Shown here: positions 5,030 to 43,972 of the stretch, one piece after another
Layout: every line of letters begins with the position of its first letter
Position numbering within the stretch: the first letter of the stretch is position 1
Assembly (NCBI RefSeq): GCF_000317675.1
Contig: NC_019776.1
Span: 62,001-126,000, forward strand
DNA: 64,000 nucleotides
Reading direction: 5' to 3'
DNA from: Cyanobacterium aponinum PCC 10605
Lineage (GTDB): Bacteria; Cyanobacteriota; Cyanobacteriia; Cyanobacteriales; Cyanobacteriaceae
Translations under genes and position numbers: made by a program
The notes under the pieces: model-generated
What the model was told of the DNA's origin: nothing
What the model saw: the letters and a program-made list of their open reading frames with translations, nothing else
Databases searched by the model: none

Positions 5030-6370
5030 ATGAATATTGCCCTACCTTATTTTAAGAATTTATGGACACATCATCGTAATGTTGTTCCGATTTCCGAACC
5101 TCAAATTAAGATTAATCAATATTTTGCTGTTAAAAAAGAACAAATATTTCCTAAAAAATTAAAAATAGTTCTTTATTCTCATGACACGATGGGTTTAGGG
5201 CATAAAAGAAGAAATCAGCTAATCGCTCAAACTTTAGAAGAATCCGGTATTTCTGGCAATATTTTAATAATTAGTGGTATAGGAGAGGGTAATCAGTTTT
5301 TTTCTTCTTCTGCTATTGATTACTTAACTCTTCCTGCCTTATATAAGTCTAGTGATGGGGAATATCGGGCTAGGCATTTTGATATGTCTTTGAAACAAAT
5401 TATTAAGATGCGATCGCAAATTATTTTAACAGCAATGAAGAATTTTCAACCAGATGTTTTTATTGTTGACAATGTGCCTAGGGGTGCAATCAATGAGTTG
5501 AATCCTATCCTTAAATATCTAAGAAAAAAGACAAAAACTAAATGTATTCTGGGTTTAAGAGATATTTTAGATGATCCTGATGTTATTAAAAATAGTTGGC
5601 AAAAAAATAATTATGAAGATGCCATTCGCAAATATTATGATCAAGTATGGATTTATGGGGATGAGCAAATTTATGACTCGATACAAGAATATACTTTTAG
5701 TCCTGATATAGCCAGTAAGTTGCACTATACAGGTTATTTAGATCAAACTGCTCGTATTCAATGGTATCAAAAACATCATCATAAAACAGATTTACATTTT
5801 CCGTCAAACTCTCTCGCTTTATGTATGGTGGGAGGAGGGCAAGACGGTGGAAATTTAGCTTTAGCTTTTGCTCAAAGTAAGTTACCAAAAAATACTTATG
5901 GTATTATTGTCACAGGTCCCATGATGCCTCCTTCTGTGCGGCAACAAATTCAGGAATATTGTGAAATGCCATCGCAAAATGGTGCAGTGCGATCGAATCT
6001 ACAGGTATTAGAATATGTTAATGAACCCACCTTATTACTAAAAAAAGCCGATTGGGTAGTGTCAATGGGAGGATATAATAGCACCTGCGAAATACTTTCT
6101 TTTCAAAAACGGGCTTTAATAGTGCCACGAATTACCCCCCGCAAGGAACAATTAATTAGGACAGAAATACTAAACAAACTAGGTTTTGTCGATATGTTGC
6201 ACCCCCAACAATTGAGTGCCGATGCCTTAAGTCAGTGGTTTAGACAAGAAAAAAAACACCATCCACAAACAGTAAATATAGATTTAGATGGGTTAAAAAA
6301 AATTCCGCAATTAATCACAGAAATTGTTAAAAAGAAGAAAAATTCTGCCAAAATTCTCTTAAAAACTTGA
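5030..6370 (+). CDS. MurG-fold (GT28/GT1-type) glycosyltransferase
   Basis: A 446-residue GT-B enzyme. The N-terminal domain begins LKIVLYSHDTMGLGHKRR (about residue 44), the usual glycine-rich loop of UDP-sugar transferases of the MurG/EryCIII class. The C-terminal domain shows VGGGQDGGN (about 267) and SMGGYNSTCEIL (about 344), the nucleotide-sugar-binding region of the GT28 C-terminus, followed by PRITPRKEQ. Donor and acceptor are unknown. It sits alone, 183 bp from the divergent DUF1232 gene. I recall similar long proteins in many cyanobacteria annotated only as glycosyltransferases. Confidence 0.72.
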   Translation: MNIALPYFKNLWTHHRNVVPISEPQIKINQYFAVKKEQIFPKKLKIVLYSHDTMGLGHKRRNQLIAQTLEESGISGNILIISGIGEGNQFFSSSAIDYLTLPALYKSSDGEYRARHFDMSLKQIIKMRSQIILTAMKNFQPDVFIVDNVPRGAINELNPILKYLRKKTKTKCILGLRDILDDPDVIKNSWQKNNYEDAIRKYYDQVWIYGDEQIYDSIQEYTFSPDIASKLHYTGYLDQTARIQWYQKHHHKTDLHFPSNSLALCMVGGGQDGGNLALAFAQSKLPKNTYGIIVTGPMMPPSVRQQIQEYCEMPSQNGAVRSNLQVLEYVNEPTLLLKKADWVVSMGGYNSTCEILSFQKRALIVPRITPRKEQLIRTEILNKLGFVDMLHPQQLSADALSQWFRQEKKHHPQTVNIDLDGLKKIPQLITEIVKKKKNSAKILLKT

Positions 6371-25418: not shown

Positions 25419-26606
25419 ATGACTACCACAACAGATAGACTCCCAAAAAAATTGATCACAGAAAGAGTAGAAAATATCTATGCTCCATCTGAAATCAATA
25501 TGTGGGAGGAAAATAGACAATTTTCGACACCTAATGCACCAAAATTAAGAATTTTAACCGAATTTAATCGTGAAAGATTACCCGCCTTTGTCGAAACCTT
25601 AAAAAAAGATAATTATTTAAAAATACAACCGTTTTATCAAAGAAGAAAACGATGGACAAATAAAGATAAATCACTTCTAATAGAATCATTTATTATTAAT
25701 ATTCCTATACCTCCCGTTATTTTTTATGAAAAATCATATAGTTCATACGAAGTAATTGATGGTCAACAAAGAATTAATGCAATTCAAGAATTTTATAGTA
25801 ATAAATTTAAATTAACAGGTTTGGATTTATGGAAGGACTTAAATGGTTATACTTATGAATCATTACCATCGGATATTAGATCTGAAATTAATAGAAGATC
25901 AATTCCTATAATAGTTGTAATAACAGAATCTGCCAAAAGAGAAGAGGATAAATTTTATTTAACACAACTTGCTTTTGAACGTCTTAATAGGGGTGGAATT
26001 GATATGAAACCTCAAGAAATTAGAAACTGTTTATATCATGGTAAATTTAGTGAATTATTATCAGATTTAGCGAAAAACACTATTTTTAGAAAAGCATGGG
26101 ATCTTCCATTAGATGAAACAAAGTTGGAAAAAAATATCATGTACAAAAAAATGGAAGATATAGAGTTAATTCTTCGATTTTTTGCTTTGCGTCATCTTGA
26201 TGATTTTAACGGAGATATTAAAAGATTTTTAGATAGTTATATGTTAAAAGCGTTAAATTTTAATCGGGATGATATTAATTATTTAGAAACTGTTTTTAAT
26301 CAAACTATTGAGCTTTGCTTTTCTATTTATGAAGAAAATCTTTTTAAACCTTTTGATATAAAAAATAATGATTGGGGTAAAAAATCTCATAAAGTTTATT
26401 ATGATGCAATTATGGTTGCATTTAGCTTTAATTTAGACAAAGCAAATATTATTCTTAATAAGAAAGAATTAATAATTCAAAAGACTAAAGAGATATTTTA
26501 TGGAGAAAAATCTAAGCTCTTATCATCGGGAAAAACTAGCAAATCAGAAACACAGGAAAGAATCAAAATAGTTAATGATATGTTAATAGGAATTGTTAAA
26601 AACTGA
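25419..26606 (+). CDS. DUF262 (GmrS-N-like) domain protein
   Basis: A 395-residue protein with the DUF262 signature of the ParB/sulfiredoxin-like fold: FYQRRKRW (about 72-79), LLIESFIINIPIPPVIFYE (86-104), VIDGQQR (112-118) and ERLNRGGIDMKPQEIRN (about 187-203). DUF262 domains are the NTP-using sensor parts of GmrSD-type restriction systems and related conflict systems, where they are usually fused to DUF1524 HNH nucleases. No nuclease domain is fused here. The stop is followed after six bases by a HEPN gene. Codons are strikingly A/T-rich compared with chlH. I infer a two-gene defence or toxin-antitoxin-like cassette. Confidence 0.85.
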   Translation: MTTTTDRLPKKLITERVENIYAPSEINMWEENRQFSTPNAPKLRILTEFNRERLPAFVETLKKDNYLKIQPFYQRRKRWTNKDKSLLIESFIINIPIPPVIFYEKSYSSYEVIDGQQRINAIQEFYSNKFKLTGLDLWKDLNGYTYESLPSDIRSEINRRSIPIIVVITESAKREEDKFYLTQLAFERLNRGGIDMKPQEIRNCLYHGKFSELLSDLAKNTIFRKAWDLPLDETKLEKNIMYKKMEDIELILRFFALRHLDDFNGDIKRFLDSYMLKALNFNRDDINYLETVFNQTIELCFSIYEENLFKPFDIKNNDWGKKSHKVYYDAIMVAFSFNLDKANIILNKKELIIQKTKEIFYGEKSKLLSSGKTSKSETQERIKIVNDMLIGIVKN

Positions 26607-26612
26607 TATTAG

Positions 26613-27710
26613 ATGAATAAATTTATTCAAAAACTACAAAACCTTTTAGATAAAGTTGATAATAATATTCAAAGTATAAAGGAAATTACCACAAAAAATC
26701 AGAAGTTAACGGACATAATATTTGGTAATGATTCTACTGTAAAAAATATTTTGAAAGAAAATAATCAATTGGATTTAACTAAAAGTAGTGTAGGATTTGA
26801 TCAATGGAAACGTTATCAACATTGTTCTGTCATTACGCAATTATATGCTATTTATGAAGATTTTGTTGAAGAGTTGATTTCAATTTGGATTGATAATCTA
26901 CCAAATATATTTGAGAAATACTCAGATTTAGGAATGGATTTTCAGAAACAATATATTTTAGGAATTGCTAAATTAATAAAAAGATTAAATAGAAATAAAT
27001 ATCCAGAATTAAAACTAGAAAAATTAATCAACATTCCTAAAAATACAAATATTAATTATAAGTTAGTTCAAGAAGTTTTTACAGATCACCAATATAATTT
27101 GCGAATGAGTGAATTAAATAAATTATTAGACAATGCAGGAATAAAAAATACATCGGATTGGCTACAAAAAAGTAACAGTATTCAGCAATCAATATCAAGT
27201 ATTAATAGTAATCAAACTACTGTTGAAAAAGAATTACAGAGGTTTATTAATTATCGAAATGATGCTAGTCATAATATTCAACAAGATAATATATTAAATT
27301 TTAATGAGTTAATTGATTTTTGTAACTTTATAAATACTATATGTTTTTCTCTTCATGATTTGATTTTATATCAAACTCTTGAAAGAATGATTGCTTTAAA
27401 TAAAATAATCACTTTAGGCCAAATTAGACAATATCGAGATAAATTAAAATCTGCAAGACTAAAAGTAAATAATAGTATTTTATTATCAGTCGGTTTACCT
27501 ACTCTATTAGTCAAGAAAGAAACATCTATTTGTAAATTTGCAAAAATAGAAAAAATAAGTATTGTATCGAATGACCAATATATAGAAAAAGAAGATATTA
27601 AAGTTCCTGAAAAAGAACAAGATATTTGGATTCAATTTAATATTGATGCAAGAAAAAATTGGACAGTATATATATTTAATTTTGATAAACTAGATAGTGG
27701 AACATTTTAA
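26613..27710 (+). CDS. HEPN-domain protein (MAE_28990/MAE_18760-type), putative RNase
   Basis: A 365-residue, mainly helical protein. The HEPN RNase motif Rx4-6H is seen as RNDASH (Arg215 to His220), within FINYRNDASHNIQ. The first helical pair is around residues 60-95 (WKRYQHCSVITQLYAIYEDFVEELISIW), as in the MAE_28990-like HEPN proteins I know from cyanobacteria. A C-terminal ~100-residue region (about 260-365) has no recognised domain. HEPN proteins with this motif cut RNA as toxins or defence effectors. It starts six bases after the DUF262 stop, so the two are almost certainly one operon. Confidence 0.8.
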   Translation: MNKFIQKLQNLLDKVDNNIQSIKEITTKNQKLTDIIFGNDSTVKNILKENNQLDLTKSSVGFDQWKRYQHCSVITQLYAIYEDFVEELISIWIDNLPNIFEKYSDLGMDFQKQYILGIAKLIKRLNRNKYPELKLEKLINIPKNTNINYKLVQEVFTDHQYNLRMSELNKLLDNAGIKNTSDWLQKSNSIQQSISSINSNQTTVEKELQRFINYRNDASHNIQQDNILNFNELIDFCNFINTICFSLHDLILYQTLERMIALNKIITLGQIRQYRDKLKSARLKVNNSILLSVGLPTLLVKKETSICKFAKIEKISIVSNDQYIEKEDIKVPEKEQDIWIQFNIDARKNWTVYIFNFDKLDSGTF

Positions 27711-28313: not shown

Positions 28314-28386
28314 TCAAATTTATCCGCCAAAATCCTGTCTGTTCGCTATTCAATCCATCCACCTTCATTTAATTAACGGAATCGTA

Positions 28387-28560
28387 TCGCAAACCACTTT
28401 ACAAAAAATCATATTTTTATAAAAAAATTAGTCTCCATAATGACTTTATTTTGTTTTAAAGTAACTGCTTCTTTTTGTGCAGTTTCAATTATCTGATTAA
28501 AGTTTTTATGGGCATATTCTATGGAAAATTCTTGCCGATGAGGGATATTTACAAAAAAAC
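28387..28560 (-). pseudogene. Possible Phd/YefM-type antitoxin remnant
   Basis: A minus-strand frame reads NIPHRQEFSIEYAHKNFNQI followed by IETAQKEAVTLKQNK, resembling the N-terminus of Phd-type antitoxins (FSIEEAQKNFxxLI...V.L..N). It has no good start and breaks after about 55 codons. Its place just upstream (minus-strand order) of the PIN remnant fits a decayed antitoxin-toxin pair. Boundaries are approximate. Confidence 0.4.
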
Positions 28561-28605
28561 AATCGCATTTTGCTTGATCTTAACAATTATTTAACCATTA
28601 AATGT

Positions 28606-29352
28606 TTAAAGATTTTCATTAACAAAACGAGGTAAATCTGATAGATTATTAATAAATTCAGCATTTAAGGGTTTACCAATAAAAGCCACATCAAAAAATT
28701 TAAACATTCCACGATGTTGAGGATTATTAATTTCATCATAAAAATTTACCGTTGCAAACCCAACTAAAGGCATATTTTTATGTTCATAACTAATGTTATA
28801 TTTTTCTTTAATGGGATTATCAGAAGTGGCAATTTCTAATAATAATTTCCACGCACAAATTTGCTCACTTTTTTTTCTTAAAGATGTTTTTAATGATAAG
28901 ATTAAACATTTATTTAACTCATTTTCTTTGTTGATACTATAGATTGCTAAATCCATATCTGGTTTTTGAGTTTCATTATCAACTTTAATGGTTACTATAT
29001 CGCTAATTAATTTATATTGTTTAGGATTAGAAGTTACAAAAACATTAGATTTGATAAATTTATTTTCCTTTAAAGTTAGAAATAAATATTTAATAAGAAG
29101 AGAAAAAGCATTTCCTGCAATAGATTTTCTGGCCTGAGATTTATCTTTTATTTCTCCAGCTAAAATTCTCTTGTCTAACAAAATTTCCACGTCATCTTTT
29201 GCTAAAATTAAAATCTTATTGAGATAATCTAGTGATTTTTCTAAACCATATTTATCAATATATTCATCAAGTTTACTGAGAATAGGAATCATATAATATC
29301 TGGACTTGATCATTTTTAATATTTGTTTTTCCTGTTTCAATAAAGAAGACAT
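28606..29352 (-). CDS. Putative type II restriction endonuclease (PD-(D/E)xK variant)
   Basis: A 248-residue protein starting at the ATG at 29352, 22 bp after the HNH gene stop. Longer frames would overlap the HNH gene and are unlikely. It contains QKPDMDLAIYS (about residues 128-138) followed by CLILSLKTSLRKKSEQICAW (about 148-167). The acidic residue, then SLK-x-S-L-R, resembles the active site of type II enzymes I know with an S-x-K version of PD-(D/E)xK. A BsaWI-like type is possible but not certain. The neighbours (HNH nuclease and C5-methyltransferase stub) support restriction. Specificity cannot be read from sequence. Confidence 0.6.
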   Translation of the reverse strand: MSSLLKQEKQILKMIKSRYYMIPILSKLDEYIDKYGLEKSLDYLNKILILAKDDVEILLDKRILAGEIKDKSQARKSIAGNAFSLLIKYLFLTLKENKFIKSNVFVTSNPKQYKLISDIVTIKVDNETQKPDMDLAIYSINKENELNKCLILSLKTSLRKKSEQICAWKLLLEIATSDNPIKEKYNISYEHKNMPLVGFATVNFYDEINNPQHRGMFKFFDVAFIGKPLNAEFINNLSDLPRFVNENL

Positions 29353-29374
29353 AATATTCACTAATTGAATAAAA

Positions 29375-30145
29375 TTAACTGGATTTAATAAAAATATTAT
29401 TTCTATGGTAGGATAAAAAATCAGAAGACGGATAGAATTTTTTAGGAAAATTAATTTCCCTATGATTAAAATTAATAAAATAATTATTAATCGCATTATT
29501 CTTAATTTTATGTATTTGAGGAGAAATGATAACTTTAAATTCCTCATCAAAAGAAATTAATCCTTGATCGAAAGCCTTATCATGAATTGAACATAAACAA
29601 ATACCGTTATGAGGATTTAATCTTGTTTCTTTATTTTTTGACCAAGGAATTATATGACTAGCAACTAATAAAGATACATAATTTAAACTACAAATTGCAC
29701 AATTTTCATTGTAATTAGACAAGACAATTTTTCTGAAAAAATTTTGGTTAATTCTCCTTTTTGTTTTTGTTATTATTTCTTCTCCTATTTTTCGATTGGG
29801 TTCATAAAGATAAATTTCTTGTGATGTATCTCTATCTTTATTTTTATAAAACTCATAAAGTAATTCAGCTTCTAAAAAAAGTTTTTCCCAATTATCATGA
29901 AACTCATCAAAAATAATCTTATCCATTTTAGCGTAATTACCCATTCCTTTTATTCCTCTTTTTTTCAATTCGGGATCTAAACTGGAAAAATTCACCAATT
30001 TAAGAGCTACCGCATTAGGAGTTCTATCAATCATTTTTGATAATTTAATAATATCTGGATTAAGACGATGTAACTTTCCAAAAGGAGTTTGGCAATAAAA
30101 GCTAAAAGCCAAAATCAATTCATGTCTAGTCCAATTTCTTCTCAT
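29375..30145 (-). CDS. HNH endonuclease
   Basis: A 256-residue protein. The N-terminal ~80 residues start RRNWTRHELILAFSFYCQTPFGKLHRLNP, a helical region seen in several restriction-associated HNH proteins. The C-terminal HNH domain has CAIC, then ASHIIPWSK and NPHNGICLCSIHDKAFDQG (about residues 150-205), with all core His/Asn/His positions present. It cuts DNA using a single divalent metal. It is between a methyltransferase fragment and a second nuclease, on the same strand, with short gaps, so a restriction operon is the natural reading. Confidence 0.85.
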   Translation of the reverse strand: MRRNWTRHELILAFSFYCQTPFGKLHRLNPDIIKLSKMIDRTPNAVALKLVNFSSLDPELKKRGIKGMGNYAKMDKIIFDEFHDNWEKLFLEAELLYEFYKNKDRDTSQEIYLYEPNRKIGEEIITKTKRRINQNFFRKIVLSNYNENCAICSLNYVSLLVASHIIPWSKNKETRLNPHNGICLCSIHDKAFDQGLISFDEEFKVIISPQIHKIKNNAINNYFINFNHREINFPKKFYPSSDFLSYHRNNIFIKSS

Positions 30146-30181
30146 ATTTTGTGGTCATATTAATTAACTTAATTTATAGTT

Positions 30182-30472
30182 TTAAAAATCTCTGTTTTTT
30201 CCCAGAGATTTTTTTTTACTCACACCTGCGATCGAAAATGGTTGACAGGGAAAACCAGCACATAATAAATCAAAGTTAGGGATATTTTCAGCAGGAATAT
30301 TGTTTAAATCTTCACAAAATATTTCCCCAAAATTAGCTGAATATGTTTGACAACTATATTTGTTATAATCATTAGAATAAATACAATTTAAACCATTATT
30401 TTCTAAGGCAATTCTAAAACCACCTATTCCTGCAAATAAATCAATGCCAGTTTTTATATCTATTGTGTTCAA
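30182..30472 (-). pseudogene. C5-cytosine DNA methyltransferase, N-terminal fragment
   Basis: A 96-codon frame, probably from a TTG start at 30472, with motif I DLFAGIGGFRIAL and the catalytic motif IV AGFPCQPFSIAG. It then stops right after SKKKSLGKNRDF. A complete C5-methyltransferase needs about 300 residues, with ENV, QRR and the target-recognition domain, all missing. The stop lies in an 11-bp perfect hairpin, and the HNH gene begins 36 bp later, so the rest was deleted. It would be inactive as a methylase. Confidence 0.85.
30184..30213. terminator. Perfect 11-bp hairpin at methyltransferase stub end
   Basis: AAAAATCTCTG (30184-30194) and CAGAGATTTTT (30203-30213) pair perfectly around an 8-nt loop. 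On the plus strand a T-tract follows. The last codons and the stop of the methyltransferase fragment lie in it. It may be an intrinsic terminator or the scar of the deletion. Confidence 0.55.
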
Positions 30473-30513
30473 GGCTCTTAACTAATATGTGTGGTAAGGA
30501 AATTATAACGTAG

Positions 30514-30530
30514 GGTGGGCAATGCCCACC
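30514..30530. repeat. Palindrome GGTGGGCAATGCCCACC behind carB
   Basis: A perfect 7-bp stem GGTGGGC/GCCCACC with a 3-nt loop, 17 bp past the carB stop (minus strand). It is of the GTAGGGTGGGC-x-GCCCACC type, which I recall as a common cyanobacterial intergenic repeat. It could terminate carB transcription. Confidence 0.55.
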
Positions 30531-43075: not shown

Positions 43076-43972
43076 ATGAACAAACCGAAAGCAAAACCTT
43101 TTTTAAAATGGGCGGGAGGAAAAACTCAATTATTAGAAATAATTACCTCAAATTTTCCATATAAAAATCAAGATGAATTTATTTATGTTGAACCATTTGT
43201 TGGTAGTGGTGCTGTTTTATTTTGGGTTTTAAATAATTATCAAAATATAAAAAAAGCTATTATTAATGATATAAATTTAGATTTAATTAATGCTTATAAA
43301 ATAATCAAAAAAAATGTAGAAGATTTAATTTTCATTTTAGAAAAATGGCAAAATGAATACTATTCTTTAGAGCATGATCAAGAAGACAAAAAAAAATATT
43401 TTTATGAAAAAAGAGATTTATTTAATCAAAGAAAATCCAACCAAATCAAACATACAGCTTTATTTATTTTTCTAAACAAGACTTGTTTTAATGGGTTATA
43501 TCGTGTTAATAAAAATAATCTATTTAACGTTCCTATAGGTAGTTATAGAAAACCTATTATTTGTGACAAAAACAACCTGCGACTTGTCAGCAATTCCCTT
43601 AAAAAAGTTGAAATTATTCACGGTGATTTTGAGAAAACTTTGAGGTATGCCGAGAACAAAAGTTTATTTTATTTAGATCCCCCTTATAAGCCATTAAATA
43701 AAACATCAAACTTTAATTCCTATGCTGACCAAAAATTCAATGATACCGAGCAAATAAGACTAAAAAAATTTTGTGACAAATTAGACCAATTAGGTTGTAA
43801 ATGGATATTAAGTAACTCTGATGTTAGAGAGGCTAATTCCGAAAATATTTTTTTTGATGACCTATATAAAAAATATCAAATTCATCGAGTTCTCGCCAGA
43901 AGAAATATCAATTCTAATGGTTTAAAAAGAGGTTTATTAAATGAATTATTAATAACGAATAATCGTAAATAA
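43076..43972 (+). CDS. Dam-type adenine-N6 DNA methyltransferase
   Basis: A 298-residue class-D12 methyltransferase: FLKWAGGKTQLLE (SAM motif, residues ~9-21), VEPFVGSGAVLFW (about 38-50), LFYLDPPYKPL (catalytic DPPY, about 199) and a C-terminal RNINSNGLKRG. This arrangement is that of Dam/DpnM enzymes, which usually methylate GATC. HIP1 (GCGATCGC) contains GATC and is frequent in this window, so HIP1 would be a natural target. No restriction gene is adjacent, so it looks solitary. The codons are A/T-rich, suggesting accessory origin, but the family is common in cyanobacteria. Confidence 0.87.
   Translation: MNKPKAKPFLKWAGGKTQLLEIITSNFPYKNQDEFIYVEPFVGSGAVLFWVLNNYQNIKKAIINDINLDLINAYKIIKKNVEDLIFILEKWQNEYYSLEHDQEDKKKYFYEKRDLFNQRKSNQIKHTALFIFLNKTCFNGLYRVNKNNLFNVPIGSYRKPIICDKNNLRLVSNSLKKVEIIHGDFEKTLRYAENKSLFYLDPPYKPLNKTSNFNSYADQKFNDTEQIRLKKFCDKLDQLGCKWILSNSDVREANSENIFFDDLYKKYQIHRVLARRNINSNGLKRGLLNELLITNNRK

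Follow-up and report, generated by a model that had tools for sequence, protein, structure and literature searches.

Remains of a BsaWI-type restriction-modification operon, probably wrecked by an HNH nuclease gene, in Cyanobacterium aponinum PCC 10605

How can a genome keep two nuclease genes beside a C5-methyltransferase gene that is too short to protect its DNA? The question is raised by a locus in the window analysed here (64,000 nucleotides of Cyanobacterium aponinum PCC 10605, contig NC_019776.1, positions 62,001 to 126,000), where the open reading frames of the minus strand follow the order C5-methyltransferase stub, HNH gene, PD-(D/E)xK gene. An earlier note on this DNA had placed the 96-codon stub, an HNH and a PD-(D/E)xK nuclease there, and open reading frames and Pfam profiles confirmed all three.

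The three genes and their parent operon

The stub (30182-30472, minus strand, 96 codons) is the N-terminal part only of a C5 methyltransferase, matching positions 3-83 of the 324 of PF00145 (E 9e-29), which we take to be motifs I to IV with none beyond, and we agree with the earlier note that it is unable to methylate. A profile search of the locus in the window found no complete C5 methyltransferase and no C-terminal part nearby. The stub shares 86% identity with the beginning of the 338-codon gene of the relative G008, which is intact, and 84% with that of G006, and over 30186-30529 the window and G008 were 88.7% identical. Sequence comparison thus gave a common upstream stretch (30473-30529, minus strand) which is probably the old promoter region of the methyltransferase, as it also precedes the intact gene of G008. 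A terminator-like inverted repeat (AAAAATCTCTG / CAGAGATTTTT, 30184-30213), seen by eye only, closes the stub; none was seen in G010, a Geminocystis MAG.

The HNH gene (29375-30145, minus strand, 256 codons) encodes a Myb-like N-terminal domain and an HNH domain (HNH_2, E 6e-14; PADLOC model HNH, E 3e-95), and its product keeps the residues that are invariant in a 27-member alignment. It occupies the place of the missing methyltransferase remainder, from about residue 97 onward, and ends about 23 bases before the restriction enzyme (RE) gene in both the window and G010. The RE gene (28606-29352, minus strand) is a full-length frame whose product belongs by sequence to the BsaWI family (PF18643 RE_BsaWI, E 2e-9, 38 bits against a cut-off of 26.2) and is probably inactive, given its motif changes. 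Its start is most likely the ATG at 29352 and not that at 29550, because the longer frame would overlap the HNH gene and relatives begin near the shorter start. No solved structures related to the RE by sequence were found.

BsaWI reads CCGG by an R-(D/E)-R motif lying 4-6 residues past the catalytic lysine (R169-D170-R171, K165; PMC4652773). In REs without an HNH gene, those of four intact pairs (G001, G014, G035, G036) and of G006, which has the nearest HNH-free relative of the window RE, the segment reads SLKTSLRERAxQTYKWK. The changed segment of the window RE, SLKTSLRKKSEQICAWK, lies at 28846-28896 on the minus strand (positions obtained by manual counting along the frame that begins at 29352) and its motif segment reads KTSLRKKSEQICAWK, RER having become RKK; that of G010 reads KISLNKYPEQICAWK, the PD aspartate also being changed to N, and that of G020 reads KPSLKEKTIPTDIWK. 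The motif is thus altered in all three REs beside an HNH gene (window, G010, G020) and kept in all five without one. Changes at invariant positions were in excess within the motif for G020 (8/16 versus 4/102, P = 7e-6) and, modestly, for G010 (8/16 versus 22/102, P = 0.02), and were not significantly so for the window alone against four distant enzymes (6/16 versus 22/102, P = 0.14). This suggests that the window RE is probably dead through loss of its CCGG-recognition motif, which would remove the protection paradox. The nuclease called intact in the earlier note is therefore so as an open frame but not in its recognition motif, and the suggestion of an inactive nuclease gains support from the lost R-(D/E)-R motif for the RE alone.

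In four relatives (G001, G014, G035, G036) the methyltransferase (M) and RE (R) genes stand side by side without an HNH gene and the methyltransferases are complete. In G006 and G008 the methyltransferase is likewise intact, but the RE is frameshifted in the former and reduced to a 34-residue remnant in the latter. Stub, HNH gene and RE occur together in the window, G010 and G020, and in the window and G010 the methyltransferase ends after about codon 96-104 with the HNH gene in its place. Judged by sequence, stub and RE are what is left of a wrecked BsaWI-type (CCGG-family) M-R operon. An ancestral M-HNH-R order was rejected for the BsaWI type as the four intact relatives show M-R without HNH, and the same operons (L059, L061, L066, L067) speak against a compound system with two nucleases per methylase, as the earlier note had considered, as does the HNH gene elsewhere, which accompanies other RE types or stands alone. 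G001, which is of the same genus, has nothing of the HNH/RM unit after carB, and elsewhere carries an HNH gene as well as an intact BsaWI-type M-R pair; a genome-wide exclusion between HNH and intact BsaWI-type methyltransferases was dropped, there being too few cases (60 relatives) and both being present in G001.

Other ways out of the paradox found no favour. A protecting methylase elsewhere in the genome was searched for by sequence and none of the same type was found, the best match to the lost part being 40% identical, though another enzyme of the same specificity may exist; the genome has five long C5 genes, one of them with an internal stop, and the methylase at 43076-43972 modifies adenine (D12 type), just as the earlier note had said. 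Another C5 fragment of the source genome (G000:C1:2554435-2554863, L007/L008), which covers profile positions 1-54 and 260-321 within a single frame of 213 aa, is by its sequence another damaged or unusual methyltransferase. Absence of the site finds no support if WCCGGW is that site, 25 copies being present in the 464 kb of the source genome (G000) read. Avoidance of WCCGGW as a sign of RE activity was also abandoned: its rarity is uninformative, as it is still rarer (2 in 200 kb) in G011, where no such RE was found. An assembly slip is an unlikely cause of the truncation, because the Geminocystis MAG (G010 = L071/L055) has the same stub-HNH join, at the identical location directly downstream of carB.

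Synonymous divergence (dS) between the window and G010 was 0.47 for the stub, 0.46 for the HNH gene (residues 106-256) and 0.44 for the RE, compared to 1.18 for carB. As these values are near-equal and well below that of carB, the stub-HNH-RE unit appears to have spread to the same place in a single piece after the hosts split. The omega values for this pair were 0.063 (HNH), 0.20 (RE) and 0.175 (stub), those of stub and RE being lower than expected from decay, for which some residual function, or else exchange with intact copies, could be responsible. The HNH gene of G010 lacks residues 8-104. At 25419-27710 (plus strand) the window encodes a GmrSD_N protein (PADLOC NsnA, 217 bits) beside a HEPN protein (MAE_28990-like), apparently a separate defence pair adjoining the RM locus. 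Two short stretches of 28352-28561 are found again in rearranged form close to carB in G008, and G012 has one of the two; gene turnover at the site downstream of carB seems, from these sequences, to have been repeated in this family.

Recurrence of the HNH gene at broken methyltransferase loci

Species genomes were scanned with the HNH alignment, giving 166 relatives, and profiles built for C5, HpaII, MvaI, BsaWI and Vsr were applied around the best 80 of the 166 HNH loci. The counts that follow are loci, not events, as some loci share one event and some are one genome seen twice (L071 = L055, L093 = L057, L139 = L063, L141 = L060, L132 = L251, L098 = L240/L262, L084 = L245/L263). An RM piece lay within 2 kb of the HNH gene in 41 of these best 80 loci, and the zones at 2-4 kb held one in only 4; many of the 80 had neither stub nor RE piece by the custom profiles. 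A C5 gene lay within 2 kb of HNH in 18 of the 80, being truncated or split in 14 (L071, L077, L081, L083, L084, L085, L089, L093, L104, L107, L108, L129, L139, L141) and complete in two (L101, L109), with two unclear (L122, nearly complete; L143, near the locus end); the breakpoints scatter from profile position 30 to 298 in different loci. A nearly complete methyltransferase directly precedes HNH in L122 and L284. REs lay within 2 kb of HNH in 26 of the 80; 14 lacked at least the first 96 profile positions, one (L099) was in two pieces and 11 were seemingly complete. Even among these 11, three MvaI-type enzymes lack Pfam positions 1-44, five of HpaII type lack the N-terminal GNKGE segment and two of BsaWI type have a changed motif, such that the sole RE appearing whole is that of L081. 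Several of the HpaII-type REs that are truncated at the N-terminus still form open frames, 183-273 aa long. In mobile records, 5 of 101 plasmid and 1 of 4 phage HNH relatives cover 80% of the query.

An unselected sample of 296 genomes, from the family of one Bacteroidota genome, gave a similar picture. RE_HpaII was present in 15 of them, and the methyltransferase was broken or missing at all five HpaII loci with HNH (five of 15, counted with wider flanks) and complete at all ten without it, two of these being fused to the RE (Fisher P = 0.00033). Full-length HNH was present in 20 of the 296 genomes, and five of these fall among the 15 HpaII genomes (P = 0.0016); an RM piece lay within 1.5 kb of nine of the 20 HNH genes. 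None of the ten genomes with complete HpaII operons had HNH anywhere, fewer than one being expected in any case. The N-terminal segment of HpaII (GNKGEW/NKGEW) was lost in four of the five with HNH and kept in nine of the ten without, the exception being L241, with another gene between M and R. A different 239-aa gene lies between an intact HpaII-type methyltransferase and the RE in L255 (6515-7231, minus strand), where the RE has lost its N-terminal segment too.

The structure of the insert is clearest in L249, where a break at profile positions 191 to 194 (placed by eye between motif VIII and the recognition domain) divides the methyltransferase, both halves are kept and the RE follows an insert that runs Flavo-1, small ORF, HNH, then another Flavo-1 in inverted orientation. 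The insert of L089 resembles it, both methyltransferase halves again being kept, and in L058 HNH runs opposite to the two pieces that enclose it, a methyltransferase N-part and an HpaII C-part, which are themselves co-directional. Flavo-1 (RF01705) is an RNA motif without known function. Rfam placed it beside HNH in 8 of the 9 loci submitted, and a search of the 80 loci with a model made from those gave 17 copies, of which 14 lay no more than 400 bases from HNH, although 8 of these 14 were the model's own seeds. At the edges of the HNH insert it is found at 5695-5771 and 6752-6826 of L249, and also in L077, L084, L089, L096, L104, L107, L108 and L132, the copies being inverted where both are present, so that a Flavo-1 pair may mark the ends of a mobile cassette. 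An integron attC had been considered as the junction element of the Bacteroidota loci and was dropped when Rfam identified Flavo-1. Small ORFs of about 65-120 aa accompany HNH in Bacteroidota loci (e.g. L096, L132, L081, L113), with three recurrent types before HNH and others after it, none with a Pfam family above the cut-off.

Explanations for the wrecked operon

The explanation that we prefer, and hold to be probable though far from secure, is that a BsaWI-type RM operon was wrecked by an invading nuclease gene, that its RE was disarmed, that the unit was then passed on whole and that HNH is a type IV enzyme. Comparison with the intact relatives shows that a Myb-HNH gene entered the operon and that the methyltransferase lost everything from about residue 97 onward, which left HNH directly before the RE, probably driven by the old methyltransferase promoter. 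The RE would then have lost its CCGG-recognition motif (the change is seen, the inactivity would follow from it) and no longer have endangered the unprotected genome, and the wrecked unit would have been handed on as one piece, as judged from one pair of genomes (window and G010). Lastly HNH would cut 5mC-modified DNA, like PcaRCII, so that beside a matching methyltransferase the gene would kill unless it landed in, and destroyed, that methyltransferase gene; the published insertion of drg in dam (PMC4269198) is a precedent.

Such methylation dependence of the HNH protein is suggested by its VcaM4I/TagI-like domain, by an architecture like that of PcaRCII and by the wrecked methyltransferases of operons whose RE types recognise CCGG, CCWGG/CCSGG and WCCGGW, and it would explain the many copies in methyltransferase genes, at varied points, in both orientations, with different REs and at no fixed site. 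In its predicted structure (pLDDT 86) the protein consists of a helical N-domain and a domain of HNH type, the latter closest to modification-dependent enzymes, namely VcaM4I (Z 14.3, 125 residues, 4.7 A) and TagI (Z 13.4, 109 residues, 3.0 A) and only weakly like EcoKMcrA (Z 6.0). The N-domain model has three helices (7-19, 30-38, 43-56), and its Myb likeness comes from weak matches (Z 4.3-4.9) to spliceosome chains, presumably those of CDC5L. The window protein thus combines, in the model, a three-helix Myb-like N-domain with a VcaM4I/TagI-like HNH domain. Several facts are contrary to a type IV role: G001 has an HNH gene together with an intact BsaWI-type M-R pair, L122 and L284 have nearly complete and L101 and L109 complete methyltransferases near HNH, and gonococci have an HNH homologue yet 5mC at CCGG is reported in them, being listed for 25 of 25 N. 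gonorrhoeae strains (PMC6789123). We also count against our preferred explanation the 11 of 20 sample HNH genes with no RM piece within 1.5 kb, the HNH deletion of G010 and the non-significant motif excess of the window. The contrary cases could reflect silenced or inactive copies, or a specificity that is narrower than CCGG.

Were HNH instead a selfish homing gene, cutting methyltransferase or RE genes that lack it and being copied in by recombination, RM systems would be destroyed with no dependence on methylation, and one would expect, as is seen, HNH genes inside methyltransferase genes with both halves retained (L249, L089), near-identical HNH genes (L089, L096, L098; 87-91%) in different break contexts and an element at each end of the L249 insert, inverted. 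Homing enzymes use one conserved site, however, and no fixed insertion site emerges from the scattered breakpoints; neither an intron nor another Rfam RNA was matched at the junction or locus in the window, and about half of the HNH genes lie outside RM loci, making homing rather unlikely. Unlikely too, in our judgement, is that HNH began as the restriction gene of an ordinary type II pair with a C5 methyltransferase (M-HNH), the loci seen now being such pairs in decay. L122 and L284 would suit such a pairing, and PADLOC labels a related profile as a type II restriction enzyme, but a nuclease in need of protection should not repeatedly outlive its methyltransferase, the methyltransferases belong to HpaII-, MvaI- and BsaWI-type operons having their own RE, and HNH is inverted in L058.

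We think it very improbable that stub, HNH and RE form a new working unit whose fragments are kept for a purpose, such as DNA binding by the disarmed RE. In its favour, omega is low for stub and RE (window and G010, dS about 0.45) even though the stub was already cut, as the shared junction implies, and several N-truncated HpaII-type REs are still open frames; against this, many HNH loci have neither fragment, the fragments vary between loci and exchange with intact copies could equally hold omega low.

If a type IV role for HNH is granted, members of this large HNH family are predicted to cut 5mC in CC(N)GG contexts, which can be checked. RM systems are generally regarded as difficult to lose, since a cell that loses the methyltransferase first dies, and repeated breakage of the methyltransferase by a nuclease gene, with disarming of the adjoining RE, would provide a concrete route for their death or replacement. 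A wider proposal, which we make tentatively and with more doubt than conviction, is that a nuclease gene of wide occurrence, flanked at times by inverted Flavo-1 in Bacteroidota, repeatedly invades and replaces the C5 methyltransferases of CC(N)GG-type RM systems across phyla, the orphan RE then being disarmed. If true, RM systems would face a dedicated antagonist that converts their loci to type IV restriction, and two-subunit methyltransferases such as M.AquI would have a natural origin in insertions that fall, as in L249 and L089, between motif VIII and the recognition domain. It would also offer an explanation for published remnants such as NgoAXIII, and the HNH insert edges give a positional clue to Flavo-1.

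Likeness to known systems

The BsaWI-type II RM system (PMC4652773) resembles the window in its RE family and has the M-R order of the relatives, but unlike it the window has a truncated methyltransferase and an RE with a changed R-(D/E)-R motif. M.AquI is naturally split, and split M.SssI is described as functioning best, between motif VIII and the recognition domain (PMC3404938), the place at which the methyltransferases of L249 and L089 are divided as well; the window lacks the second half, which leaves no possibility of complementation there.

PcaRCII of Pectobacterium restricts DNA with 5mC in CCNGG, and its N-domain is described as a three-helix bundle like hTRF1 (PMC8989522). Compared by description only, it has the N-terminal three-helix bundle and C-terminal VcaM4I/TagI-like HNH domain of the window protein, but unlike the window it is described with no methyltransferase gene nearby and with its RM conflict settled by promoter methylation (PMC8989522).

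An N. gonorrhoeae record (L264) contains pheS, Vsr, a C5 stub (profile positions 6-72), a small ORF, an HNH homologue 41% identical to that of the window and pheT, with pheS and pheT named by eye as the record is unannotated there. It fits, by its sequence, the published NgoAXIII locus, in which Vsr is followed by a C5 methyltransferase remnant of 112-133 aa, while meningococci have NmeDI (RCCGGY) between pheS and pheT (PMC6789123, PMC7973814). NgoAXIII is like the window in its C5 remnant, which an HNH homologue adjoins in L264, and unlike it in that no RE was detected there with the custom profiles; the term HNH is absent from the text on NgoAXIII (PMC6789123).

In the literature, judged mostly from listings, we recognised no report of an HNH gene inserted in a C5 methyltransferase gene. 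The closest parallel is drg of Neisseria, a nuclease gene whose product cuts GmeATC and which is inserted in dam, methylation of the locus being lost (PMC4269198). As in the window, a nuclease gene lies within a methyltransferase gene and truncates it, but drg is DpnI-like, its cutting was shown by assay and the dam gene is described as solitary with no RE adjoining (PMC4269198). Unlike drg, the arrangement described here is known from sequence alone, and it involves C5 methyltransferases, a Myb-HNH protein, an orphaned RE and several phyla; in common with drg, a nuclease gene interrupts or replaces a methyltransferase gene, in the window and recurrently in other loci.
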